Below, in pieces: positions 15,074 through 41,635 of a stretch of 64,000 bases of DNA. Both the position numbers and the translations under genes were made by a program. Positions within the stretch are counted from its first letter, which is position 1. Every line of letters starts with the position of its first letter. The stretch comes from Niallia circulans (GTDB lineage Bacteria; Bacillota; Bacilli; Bacillales; Cytobacillaceae): the NCBI RefSeq assembly GCF_007273535.1, contig NZ_RIBP01000004.1, positions 496,001 through 560,000 on the forward strand, read 5' to 3'. A model generated the notes under the pieces. The model saw only the letters and a program-made list of their open reading frames with translations, was not told the DNA's origin and did not search any database.

Positions 15074-15874
15074 TTAACCTCTAGATTTCCCTCCTGAAAT
15101 ATTTAATGTTGTACCCGTAATATAACTGGAACGATCGGAAGCTAAATAAGTCACCAAATCGCCAATTTCTGTTAACTTACCTTCTCTGCCAAGAGGAATA
15201 GATTTACTGTAATCTGTGGATAATCCATCTACCGTAACCCCACGAGTATACGCTAGAGCTTCGTTATACGCATCTGTTCTTAATCCTGTAGTTTCAATAA
15301 TACCTGGCGCAATTCCAACTACACGGATGTTAAACTTCCCAAGCTCTTTTGCCCATGCGCGTGTAAAGGAAATTACAGCACCTTTAGTAGCAGAATAACA
15401 GCTTTGTCCTGCAGAGCCTTCTTGCCCTGCCTCAGAAGAAACGTTAATGATGACACCTTTGTTTACCTTTAACATTTCTTTAGCAGCAGACTGTGCAAAG
15501 AGATAAGGACCTTTTTGATTAACTGCTACCATAAAGTCAAAATCACGCTCACTCAATTCATACTCCGGTCTTTCACCCTTATCATCCACTAAAAGTCTTG
15601 GCAGATTTACTCCCGCATTATTTACCAAGATATCGACAGTGCCAAAAAGTTCAACTGTTTTAGAAACAGTGTTGTTTACACTTTCTTTATTTGTTACATC
15701 ACATTTTAGAAAGTAAGAACCATCTTCTCTAGCTCCTTCCTCTCCATTTAAGTCAGCAACGACAACTTTAACTCCATTGTTTAAAAGTCCCTTTGTAATT
15801 TCTAAACCAATGCCAGAGGCTCCACCTGTTACAATCGCGACTTTCCCTTCAAGATTTAACCATGTATCACTCAT
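15074..15874 (-). CDS. gutF: Sorbitol-6-phosphate 2-dehydrogenase (SDR)
   Basis: A 266-residue SDR with TGGASGIG near residue 18, the acidic NAD-selecting VVADLNGE, NNAG, a catalytic Ser and YSATK. The N-terminus (SDTWLNLEGKVAIVTGG) closely resembles lactobacillar GutF. It oxidises sorbitol-6-phosphate to fructose-6-phosphate. The ATG at 15874 is chosen since GAGGAGGAATT immediately precedes it; the open frame continues 31 codons further up, but that stretch runs through the promoter and cre site. First gene of the operon gutF-R-M-C-B-A. Confidence 0.9.
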   Translation of the reverse strand: MSDTWLNLEGKVAIVTGGASGIGLEITKGLLNNGVKVVVADLNGEEGAREDGSYFLKCDVTNKESVNNTVSKTVELFGTVDILVNNAGVNLPRLLVDDKGERPEYELSERDFDFMVAVNQKGPYLFAQSAAKEMLKVNKGVIINVSSEAGQEGSAGQSCYSATKGAVISFTRAWAKELGKFNIRVVGIAPGIIETTGLRTDAYNEALAYTRGVTVDGLSTDYSKSIPLGREGKLTEIGDLVTYLASDRSSYITGTTLNISGGKSRG

Positions 15875-15896
15875 TAGTAATTCCTCCTCATCATTT

Positions 15897-15910
15897 TGAA
15901 AGCACTTTCT
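15897..15910 (-). promoter_or_regulatory. CcpA cre-like site, gut operon
   Basis: On the plus strand TGAAAGCACTTTCT, which differs from the ideal palindromic cre at two positions. It lies downstream of the predicted start of transcription and before the gutF ribosome site, suited to glucose repression. Confidence 0.65.
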
Positions 15911-15923
15911 ATTTCTTGATTTC

Positions 15924-15952
15924 AGTATAGGAGGTAATCTAATGTAATTTAA
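15924..15952 (-). promoter_or_regulatory. Predicted gut operon promoter
   Basis: Minus strand: -10 TATACT (15924-15929) and, 17 bases upstream, a poor -35 TTAAAT (15947-15952). A good -10 with weak -35 is typical of activator-dependent promoters and fits control by the PRD activator. Confidence 0.55.
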
Positions 15953-15990
15953 TACAGACTTTTTCACATAATAGTGAAAAAGTCTGTATT
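15951..15990. promoter_or_regulatory. 17-bp palindrome, putative GutR operator
   Basis: Perfect 17-bp inverted repeat (15951-15967 / 15974-15990) with a 6-base spacer. It overlaps the edge of the -35 box and extends upstream. Its core TTTTCAC-N6-GTGAAAA resembles the MtlR-type operator of PRD activators (TTGNCACA-N4-TGTGNCAA). A terminator for something upstream is the main alternative. Confidence 0.55.
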
Positions 15991-16440
15991 ATTAATCTGA
16001 TTTATTTAGATACAGGATTTTTATGTATGTACTTTAACATAGTCGAAAAGTTTAATCCGCTTAACCACTTGCCATGAAGAACAAATTAATAGTATATCTA
16101 ATTAATTCGGTATGTTTAGAATGGTTTAAAAGCATGATTTTATAAAATAGCTTTACAACAGGAGCTTTAAAGACTGGCACAAACTCTGACATCGTAAACG
16201 ATTGAAAGAAGACTTGGTAAAGATTTGAGTTAGGCTTAGGCTATCTAAATGGGAATCTGAAAAGTCCTTCCTCCATATTTATTAAATAAAAGTTGTTCTC
16301 CCCCTAGTATAAAAAAGCTACAGAAAAAATCCTTTTGTATAAATTTTTAAGCAATTGTTTTAGACAAAGACCAATAGTTATATTACCCTATTAAACTACA
16401 AAAGAAAATATAGTTTAAACCTATTTTCTGTTCCTACTAA
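15991..16440. other. Gene-poor AT-rich gap
   Basis: No open frame with a ribosome site, no RNA signature and no clear repeat structure was found. The composition is uniformly AT-rich with many stops in all frames, as expected for spacer or decayed sequence. Confidence 0.5.
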
Positions 16441-39477: not shown

Positions 39478-39824
39478 CCTTTTTCACCAACGTTCAATTA
39501 GCCTTTTATTTCTTCGCCTCTATTCTACCTTTTTTATTATGGCTTGTCTAAATACGAAAAAACTAAAAAAATTGTAAAAAGAGGTTTAGGCGGTGAAAAA
39601 ACAGGGTAATGACTATGATGAGTATTAATAAATAGGATACAGGAAAAAATTTTGTTCATAATTTTTCATAAATTAGTACCATTTATTTCGGTAAAATTGT
39701 ATAATTTATGAACTTTTTTTGGTAGTATTAACAAAACCATCGAACAATTTGTTCTTTATATGGAACTTTTGGATTATATTTGTTATGATATTATTACATA
39801 TAGTGATAAGGTGTGTGAGACTGT
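39478..39824. other. treR / sinR intergenic region with SinR box
   Basis: Very AT-rich gap between divergent genes. It holds a palindrome GAACAA-T-TTGTTC (39742-39754) that runs into GTTCTTT (39751-39757), the exact SinR-box heptamer, about 70 bases before sinR. A TATGAT (39784-39789) could be the -10 of the sinR promoter. These suggest autoregulation. No gene was seen. Confidence 0.5.
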
Positions 39825-40148
39825 ATGATCGGTGATCGTGTTAAAAAACTTCGCTTAGAAAAAAGAATGTCATTGTCAGAACTTGCTGAACAAGCAGGTG
39901 TTGCAAAATCTTATTTAAGTTCCTTGGAGCGCAATCTCCAGTCAAATCCATCCATACAGTTTTTAGAAAAAATTGCTTCTGTTTTTAATGTTCCAGTGGA
40001 CCATCTTATAAATGAACAGCAAAATAAAGATGACCTTGATACAGAATGGCTGAAAATTGTGAAAGAGGCAATGGACTCTGGTGTTTCCAAAGCTGAATTC
40101 CGAGAGTTTCTTGAGTATAATAAATGGAGAATTGAACAAAAAAAATAG
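39825..40148 (+). CDS. sinR: SinR, master repressor of biofilm genes
   Basis: A 107-residue protein very close to B. subtilis SinR. The HTH_3 DNA-binding domain (1-69) contains SLSELAEQAGVAKSYLSSLE and RNLQSNPSIQFLEKIA. The C-terminal SinI-type dimerisation domain has LDTEWLKIVKEAMDSGVSK and FREFLEYNKWR. SinR tetramers repress matrix operons and promote the motile state; SinI disrupts the tetramer. Here the gene is not preceded by sinI. Confidence 0.93.
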   Translation: MIGDRVKKLRLEKRMSLSELAEQAGVAKSYLSSLERNLQSNPSIQFLEKIASVFNVPVDHLINEQQNKDDLDTEWLKIVKEAMDSGVSKAEFREFLEYNKWRIEQKK

Positions 40149-40206: not shown

Positions 40207-40320
40207 CATTTATTCTTTAAAGTAGTCTGTAAAAGCAATATATAAACGTACAAAAATAAATCTATGCTTGCTTCATTATATATCTGAATTTTAAAACAAT
40301 TTAAGGTGTAATAAAAATAA

Positions 40321-40339
40321 AAAATTGCGCGCAAATTTT
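40321..40339 (-). terminator. Possible weak sinI terminator
   Basis: Near-palindrome AAAATTgcgcgcAAATTTT, followed on the minus strand by T-rich sequence, about 60 bases after the sinI stop. Confidence 0.3.
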
Positions 40340-40397: not shown

Positions 40398-40517
40398 TTA
40401 ATCGTTATTGATGAAATTACGCACATCTTTTATGTCCAGTCCTATTTTTTTTGCTTCCTTCATTAACTGAATCCATTCTGTGTCTAGTTCTTCTACAACT
40501 AATTTTTCCTCTATCAC
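40398..40517 (-). CDS. sinI: SinI-like anti-repressor (39 residues)
   Basis: A short gene running opposite to sinR and converging with it. It starts at GTG 40517, with GGGAGAGGGG 9 bases upstream, and ends at TAA 40398. The core ELDTEWIQLMKEAKKIGL followed by DIKDVRNFI lines up with B. subtilis SinI (ELDQEWVELMVEAKEANIS...EEIRKYL) and with the C-terminal domains of both SinR copies in this locus, so it should form SinI-SinR heterodimers and relieve repression. It lacks the longer tail of B. subtilis SinI. In B. subtilis sinI-sinR is one operon; here sinI is a separate unit behind a c-di-GMP riboswitch. Confidence 0.85.
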   Translation of the reverse strand: MIEEKLVVEELDTEWIQLMKEAKKIGLDIKDVRNFINND

Positions 40518-40554
40518 TTAATTCTGCCCCTCTCCCAAAAATACTTATTGTACT

Positions 40555-40635
40555 TTGGCAGTCCGGCTGTCATTGTTTCACAACTTTAGACCCGTGACTT
40601 TGCGTCCCAATCTTTCGAATTGGTTTGCCCTGTTC
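40555..40635 (-). promoter_or_regulatory. Cyclic-di-GMP-I (GEMM) riboswitch in the sinI leader
   Basis: Read on the minus strand, the leader contains in order AGGGCAAACC (40622-40631), a CCAAT...GAAA...ATTGG stem-loop with the GAAA tetraloop, GGGACGCAAAG, ACGGGTCTAA, a variable loop, then TGACAGCCGGACTGCC (ending 40557). These are the conserved blocks of the class I c-di-GMP aptamer, including the tetraloop that docks in its receptor. The closing helix pairs GGCA with TGCC. After it, CTGCC can instead pair with GGCAG at 40524-40528, which overlaps the ribosome site of sinI; this predicts translation that rises when c-di-GMP binds. Confidence 0.88.
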
Positions 40636-40654
40636 TTTTATGCATTTTATTATA
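40632..40654 (-). promoter_or_regulatory. sinI promoter -10 and SinR box
   Basis: Minus-strand TATAAT at 40649-40654 would start transcription near 40642, about 11 bases before the aptamer. The -35 region is poor (CACATA), hinting at an activator such as Spo0A. GTTCTTT (plus strand 40632-40638), an exact SinR-box match, covers the start site. Confidence 0.6.
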
Positions 40655-41079: not shown

Positions 41080-41262
41080 GTTCTTTTTAAATGATTTTTT
41101 GTTCTTTTTATAGAACTTATAAATTCAGTATAGTTCAATTATCTCATTTTGGAAAATTCTAAAATCTGCTATTTTTTCTCTTTAACGAACGAATATCGTT
41201 CTTTTTCTCGAATATACTCCGTTTTGCTAGCTTTTTTGTATTTTTTATTGAACAAAACGTTC
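41080..41262. promoter_or_regulatory. Cluster of SinR boxes between the zinc-ribbon gene and sinR2
   Basis: GTTCTTT occurs at 41080-41086, 41101-41107 and 41198-41204. The third is part of a palindrome GAACGA-N3-TCGTTC (41187-41201), and the second is followed by GAAC (41113-41116). A fourth element GAAC-N5-GTTC (41250-41262) lies just before TATAAT (41265-41270), the likely -10 of sinR2. Confidence 0.6.
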
Positions 41263-41308: not shown

Positions 41309-41635
41309 ATGGTTGGTACAGCATTGAAAAGATTGCGGTTAGAAAAAGGCTACTCTATTAATGAGTTATCTGACCGGGCAGGTGTCTCGAAGTCTTACTT
41401 AAGCTATATTGAGCGGGGAATTCAAAAGAATCCTTCCTTACAGGTCCTTTCAAAGCTTGCTTCTACCCTTGACACACATGTGGAAGAGTTACTCGAAACA
41501 AATCCAACTTCAACGGACAACTTGGATTCAGAATGGGTAAACTTAGTAGAGGAAGCCATTAAAGAAGGAATAACAAAAGATGAGTTTTCTTGCTACTTGG
41601 AGTTCATTAAATTCAAAAAGTCATCTGCAGATTAA
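41309..41635 (+). CDS. Second SinR/SlrR-like regulator
   Basis: A 108-residue paralogue of SinR: HTH_3 domain (1-69) with SINELSDRAGVSKSYLSYIE and RGIQKNPSLQVLSKLA, and a C-terminal domain with LDSEWVNLVEEAIKEGITKDEF. It keeps both the DNA-recognition helix and the SinI-type interface. In B. subtilis the SinR paralogue SlrR pairs with SinR to repress autolysin and motility genes; this gene may play that part, though it has only a SinR-sized architecture. ATAAGGAG precedes the ATG. Confidence 0.85.
   Translation: MVGTALKRLRLEKGYSINELSDRAGVSKSYLSYIERGIQKNPSLQVLSKLASTLDTHVEELLETNPTSTDNLDSEWVNLVEEAIKEGITKDEFSCYLEFIKFKKSSAD

Follow-up and report, generated by a model that had tools for sequence, protein, structure and literature searches.

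Can the second messenger c-di-GMP act directly on the Sin switch? This question is raised by a locus in a stretch of 64,000 nucleotides from Niallia circulans, which we refer to as the window. SinR is the textbook repressor of biofilm formation and c-di-GMP the textbook signal for settling down. In the model species Bacillus subtilis, sinI and sinR form a single Spo0A-controlled operon with sinI first, and we know of no riboswitch that joins SinR and c-di-GMP there in the way described below. An earlier interpretation made from the letters of the window (the sequence-only reading) had placed a class I c-di-GMP riboswitch directly before a stand-alone gene for a 39-residue SinI-like anti-repressor; the region that it singled out extends from the sinI stop codon to a TATAAT motif (40649-40654, by eye). 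Our analysis leads to the view, to which we assign a probability of roughly 0.72, that the sinI leader begins with a c-di-GMP-I riboswitch which probably switches translation ON and would thereby release SinI against SinR; this view draws on leader anatomy and on modelled folds. The features concerned are the following:

40649..40654, minus strand: putative -10 box (TATAAT) immediately before the aptamer (by eye; no good -35)
40554..40639, minus strand: c-di-GMP-I (GEMM-I) riboswitch aptamer (RF01051, 81.8 bits, full length)
40535..40558, minus strand: putative expression platform hairpin CCAAAGUAC / GUAUUUUUGG (minimum-energy fold; 91 leaders of relatives)
40527..40536, minus strand: purine-rich Shine-Dalgarno region GGGAGAGGGG (from the sequence)
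40398..40517, minus strand: sinI, predicted antirepressor of SinR (39 aa, GTG start; PF08671, 49.5 bits; 1b0n_B)
40313..40339, minus strand: possible intrinsic terminator behind sinI (by eye: stem rich in A/T, followed by a T-rich tract)
39825..40148, plus strand: sinR, the expected SinI target (HTH_3 and SinI domains; 1b0n_A, E 7e-38)
41309..41635, plus strand: second SinR-like repressor, possible second target (HTH_3, 63.6 bits; SinI domain, 42.5 bits)

The presence of a c-di-GMP-I aptamer before sinI is confirmed. The Rfam covariance model RF01051 matches 40554-40639 on the minus strand with 81.8 bits (E 1.5e-14, gathering score 35) over model positions 1-87 of 87, and this is its sole match at the gathering threshold in the 64-kb window. 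A covariance model of our own (R1), for which 28 aptamers not linked to sinI were the sole source, gives 81.6 bits. Between the aptamer end at 40554 and the sinI start codon at 40517, on the same strand, lie 36 nt. The product of the sinI open reading frame (ORF) matches the SinI family PF08671 with 49.5 bits against a cut-off of 31.4, no other Pfam family being found at E 0.1; its residues 9-36 align with the SinI chain of PDB entry 1b0n_B (E 0.004), and it represents a SinI domain without helix-turn-helix. A SinI with identical letters occurs in a Niallia taxi record (L266). The sequence-only reading was therefore right about the class of the aptamer, for which it had proposed the Rfam covariance-model check and which is matched significantly and at full length, about its position directly before the gene and about the 39-residue SinI-like product; the epithet 'stand-alone' is likewise apt, since the nearest SinR gene is convergent and 249 nt away.

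Proteins of the cognate SinR type, with a helix-turn-helix and a SinI-type C-terminal domain, are encoded in the genome at 39825-40148 and 41309-41635. The former gene lies tail-to-tail with sinI; the latter sits behind the sinI leader, and its product may, by analogy, be SlrR-like. Although the SinI and SinR proteins of the window align with those of the B. subtilis pair (1b0n), the gene arrangement differs, as the window sinI is convergent with sinR and stands behind a riboswitch, and the B. subtilis-type sinIR operon order is not encountered. None of 14 control genomes, B. subtilis included, gives a c-di-GMP-I match, in agreement with the earlier statement that sinI of that species has no riboswitch. 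The candidate terminator at 40313-40339 is not among the finds of a consensus terminator scan. Palindromes of the form GTTCT-n-(A/G)GAAC have only two matches in the window (39751-39766 and 41101-41116), one ~60 and the other ~190 bases 5' of the respective sinR-like gene. Both are similar to what we take to be SinR half-sites, suggesting autoregulation. TasA as an output of SinR in this genus was considered and dropped, because the TasA family (PF12389) is absent from all 13 genomes of the genus, all 13 of which have SinI matches.

The genome as a whole holds 8 c-di-GMP-I aptamers and 4 SinI domains, two of which belong to SinR-like proteins and two to stand-alone genes. Both of the stand-alone SinI genes (2/2) lie under a c-di-GMP-I aptamer, so the pairing seen in the window is more than chance:

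C4:1520322-1520399: second stand-alone sinI (locus L003), with its aptamer at C4:1520478-1520565

The window SinI was further used as query against 193 genomes of the family and found matches in 176. The survey covers the matches listed, comprising 150 places that were taken as 147 loci, with 54 of the 176 matching genomes outside; aptamers were detected with model R1 and sinR was recognised by a small helix-turn-helix profile. Including the second sinI of the N. circulans genome, the set amounts to 157 distinct SinI ORFs without helix-turn-helix from 122 genomes. Among these matches, 123 of the 157 stand-alone ORFs, in 108 of the 122 genomes, are preceded on their own strand by an aptamer at a distance of under 250 nt. 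The sequence-only reading had suggested such a survey of sinI leaders in relatives, and its outcome goes further than that reading supposed: the riboswitch wiring is the common state of the examined sinI genes in the family. A few weak aptamer scores were kept among the 123 (L182, 31 bits; L167, 32; L175, 42; L146, 48). The nearest SinR gene at these 123 loci is convergent in 96 cases, has the same orientation in 4, is divergent in 1 and lies outside the fetched stretch in 22; convergent sinI and sinR ORFs are often separated by ~100 nt, and locus L154 carries an aptamer, sinI and a convergent sinR. The 34 of the 157 ORFs (among the matches listed) at which no aptamer was detected include second SinI copies and all 5 ORFs of genera g3, g13 and g25. 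Also among the 34 are two loci from the present genus (L048 and L060), which have sinI convergent with sinR and no detected aptamer, and are possible natural losses of the aptamer; the SinI match of L060 contains an internal TGA stop.

Beyond the family, the combination was traced with a DNA pattern consisting of the aptamer core and, spaced as in the loci already observed, SinI codons for D-x-E-W. Named genomes contain this pattern in at least 120 stretches, from which 80 loci were obtained, and SinI is encoded at 77 of the 80 (the remaining ones being L223, L246 and L268). The genera with SinI at the pattern include Niallia, Cytobacillus, Neobacillus, Mesobacillus, Metabacillus, Peribacillus, Heyndrickxia, Jeotgalibacillus, Alkalihalobacillus, Salipaludibacillus, Gracilibacillus and Thalassobacillus; for Alicyclobacillus the case is weak (26.7 bits). 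Of the 77 named loci, 17 have their closest SinR-like gene on the strand that carries sinI. A sample of the window's order (taken as Bacillales) shows the pattern in 117 of 397 genomes and 44 of 136 genera, and a reversed control pattern in 0 of the 397. A phylum-wide sample gave 2 of 299, both inside the order, and so none of the 295 genomes sampled outside it. These counts are lower bounds, because the riboswitch-to-SinI part of the pattern catches just 96 of the 123 family loci.

Paenibacillaceae possess c-di-GMP-I aptamers in 102 of 104 genomes, and an aptamer lies within 1.5 kb at 3 of their 30 best SinI/SinR loci, the same three being recovered when 19 of the 30 were rechecked with Rfam. 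With so few sinI loci near aptamers in that family, the link appears to be chiefly one of Bacillales, with few cases outside. Twelve of the Paenibacillaceae loci (L336, L337, L339, L341-L349) show sinI convergent with sinR, the ORF ends being ~20 nt apart or less, and no riboswitch at the Rfam gathering score. Plasmids yielded one partial match (18% of the leader) and phages no match for the SinI protein. A record titled Chryseobacterium sp. ISL-80 (L208) carries a riboswitch-sinI-sinR locus resembling those of genus g15; its title is probably wrong.

How would such an aptamer govern sinI? The sequence-only reading gave no direction of control; the anatomy of the leader predicts ON, at the level of translation. 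In the window, the terminal CC of the aptamer and the first Gs of the Shine-Dalgarno region pair to form the base of the hairpin. The distance from aptamer end to start codon (the latter chosen by script) has a median of 30 nt in the family leaders, most of whose spacers are alike and read UGCC-UGG-AAUAC-loop-GUAUU-UU-(A/G)GGGG-start. Identical leaders were merged, and 9 of the 123 with differing or doubtful spacers were excluded beforehand, which left an alignment of 91 distinct leaders. Here 94.1% of the cells of the 10-bp hairpin are paired, as against 26-56% when it is slid by 1-3 columns. Shuffling the letters inside each column gives 91.5%, and 94.1% is reached by 0 of 500 shuffles. Similarly, the covariation score is 0.194, compared with 0.153 in the shuffled columns (0/500 as high) and 0.03-0.15 in the slid ones. 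The variation is mostly one-sided (G-U/A-U/G-C or U-A/U-G), and double changes are not above control, whether counted as pairs (2 against a shuffled mean of 1.5, with 231 of 500 shuffles as high) or as cells (8 against 18 at slide -1 and 12 at slide +1). RNAalifold retains 5 of the 10 pairs, namely the outer five, none of which has a double change. As judged by eye, the printed family spacers contain no U-tract 3' of the hairpin, which is thus not intrinsic-terminator-like. That this hairpin joins the aptamer's CC to the Gs of the Shine-Dalgarno site is our ground for inferring an ON switch that acts on translation. At the genome's other stand-alone sinI the spacer, CACCUUAU-GAGA-AUAUAAGGAGG, is unrelated to that of the window and follows the same logic, with CCUUAU opposite the AUAAGG of AAGGAGG.

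From structures of the Vc2 riboswitch, a C is known to contact c-di-GMP in the ligand pocket. Without ligand, then, the last two Cs of the aptamer would pair with the Shine-Dalgarno region and no SinI would be made. Once c-di-GMP is bound, these Cs would be held in the pocket, the hairpin would lose its base and translation of sinI could start. SinR, and possibly the other SinR-like protein as well, would in turn be sequestered by SinI, so that the targets of SinR would be released.

Folding energies back this switch only partly. In the unconstrained minimum-energy fold of the window leader the Shine-Dalgarno region is buried, and the mean unpaired probability of its hexamer UGGGAG (chosen by script) is 0.20 in the free state and rises to 0.87 when the aptamer fold is enforced. 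In a set of 96 of the 123 leaders the median goes from 0.31 to 0.67, the site becoming more open in 85 of the 96 and less open in 2. The bound state was imposed by hand, with the terminal GCC kept unpaired; its median cost of 8.1 kcal/mol (window leader: 10.0) would have to be made up by ligand binding. The cost of opening the Shine-Dalgarno site has a median of 4.87 kcal/mol in real leaders against 4.17 with dinucleotide-shuffled aptamers; the real leader exceeds the shuffled mean by more than 0.5 in 65 of 122 cases and falls below it by as much in 31. Shuffled aptamers are nearly as effective because the G-rich site pairs with almost anything. In arguing for an ON switch, the conserved hairpin is the stronger argument.

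The same riboswitch could have the opposite sign, the ligand shutting sinI off and c-di-GMP thereby keeping SinR active. Switches of the c-di-GMP-I class that act in this way exist, mcpA of B. thuringiensis being labelled 'off' in the passages of the MogR paper considered here (PMC7793685). Moreover, kinetic effects lie beyond the reach of folding, and in the fold of locus L069 (genus g15) aptamer and hairpin coexist in the free state. We nevertheless regard the OFF sign as unlikely, since no U-tract terminator is seen by eye between aptamer and gene, and a conserved hairpin built on the aptamer's own CC is one that the ligand should open. The same passages cite unpublished microarray data in which sinI of B. 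thuringiensis is up when a diguanylate cyclase is overexpressed, which would also speak against an OFF switch if that sinI carries the riboswitch (PMC7793685). The cbpA (ON) and mcpA (OFF) elements of B. thuringiensis resemble the present case as c-di-GMP riboswitches tied to surface or motility genes, but in the parts of the papers considered their targets are an adhesin and a chemotaxis receptor, outside the SinR circuit (PMC7793685, PMC7423583). Among RF01051 members in general, the window aptamer conforms in fitting the whole model well above the gathering score. It departs from the usual ones in its target, a protein-protein antirepressor of a master regulator, and in its spacer, a potential 10-bp hairpin on the Shine-Dalgarno site without U-tract.

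More doubtful still is an antisense action, in which the riboswitch transcript would run into the convergent sinR and silence it, SinI being secondary. The convergent layout of 96 of the 123 loci with riboswitch and sinI, in which the ORFs are often ~100 nt apart, would suit such a role. PMC9943018, in the sections available to us, takes a Paenibacillus c-di-GMP-I element that lies opposite a SinR homologue to be antisense-acting, and names c-di-GMP as the class most prone to antisense placement (152 antisense, 2,554 sense). What speaks against it is that the SinI ORF has its own ribosome site at a median of 30 nt behind the aptamer, that the switch logic is located at this very site, that a same-strand SinR-like gene is the nearest one at 17 of the 77 named loci, and that a possible terminator (by eye) follows the window sinI. 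The Paenibacillus element belongs to the same aptamer class and likewise lies opposite a sinR-like gene, sinI being unmentioned in those sections of the text; the window locus differs in having a SinI gene in sense orientation as a direct target (PMC9943018). Indeed, a convergent riboswitch-sinI-sinR layout is what a pipeline of that type would report if the small sinI were left unannotated. That an aptamer-like sequence without regulatory role lies beside a small ORF by chance or as a relic is very improbable, for against the two genomes of the genus with sinI beside sinR and no detected aptamer stand the full-length match of 81.8 bits, the pairing in 108 of 122 examined family genomes (among the matches listed) and in many named genera, and the conserved platform.

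The pairing of a c-di-GMP-I aptamer with sinI has a forerunner in the literature. In a 2015 study of Bacillus methanolicus MGA3 (PMC4342826), '(c-di-GMP)-sinI' at BMMGA3_08510 is listed as a putative riboswitch within an RNA-seq-defined 5'-UTR; this is the same arrangement as in the window, and the 5'-UTR indicates that aptamer and sinI share one transcript there. In the portion of that paper considered, the entry is one table row among four putative c-di-GMP switches, without mechanism or survey. The interpretation offered by the sequence-only reading consequently stands with regard to aptamer class (RF01051), gene identity (PF08671) and adjacency (36 nt), and its remark that no c-di-GMP-controlled sinI had been described is not quite right in view of this putative case. 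We found no study of the sinI riboswitch itself in the open-licence PMC literature, and relative to the papers searched there the order-wide wiring, the conserved hairpin on the ribosome site and the prediction of an ON switch are new.

Transcription of sinI is probably controlled separately. If the TATAAT at 40649-40654, recognised by eye, serves as a -10 box, the transcript would start at about the start of the aptamer; by raw count, 68 of 122 leaders have a TA(T/C/A)AAT motif ~70-10 nt 5' of the aptamer. The motif TGTCGAA, which we take to be a Spo0A-type box, precedes the aptamer in 52 of 122 leaders and 10 of 17 genera, with ~2 expected from shuffles. The window sinI has no exact box, the nearest 8-mers having 2 mismatches, and the second sinI of the genome (L003) has one. 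As a feature specific to sinI the box is weakened by its occurrence in 8 of 36 non-sinI c-di-GMP-I leaders (L032, L037, L038, L039, L042, L019, L023 and L031), hinting at a broader group shared by Spo0A and c-di-GMP. In genomes with such boxes the leader might plausibly serve as a coincidence gate, combining Spo0A and c-di-GMP in AND fashion.

Taken together, a broader picture can be put forward tentatively, at somewhat less than even odds: in much of the Bacillales the Sin switch would be wired to c-di-GMP, sinI, often driven by Spo0A, would be translated only at high c-di-GMP (an AND gate with the sporulation-biofilm phosphorelay), B. subtilis would be the exception, and 'antisense' c-di-GMP switches opposite sinR-like genes would in part be unannotated riboswitch-sinI pairs in sense orientation. 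A conserved sinI riboswitch would constitute a one-step, testable link between c-di-GMP and SinR in many genera of Bacillales, and B. subtilis, if this is true, would be a poor guide to its relatives with respect to this wiring. The sinI leader is a small self-contained part suited to in vitro and reporter tests.

Some observations concern the other aptamers of the N. circulans genome. The second riboswitch-sinI (L003, 1501-1588) is located between genes for a nucleotidyl transferase (GalU-like) and a WecG/TagA glycosyltransferase, the flanking genes occupying positions 15251-16159 and 16798-17556 of L350. Genes for a phosphoglucomutase, an epimerase and a further glycosyltransferase occur within ~20 kb, and these polysaccharide genes around the second sinI are a possible SinR target. 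Six further c-di-GMP-I aptamers are present (L001, L004-L008), and, judged by eye, the ORF 3' of L001 looks to encode a secreted protein, those behind L005 and L008 sensory or chemotaxis proteins.
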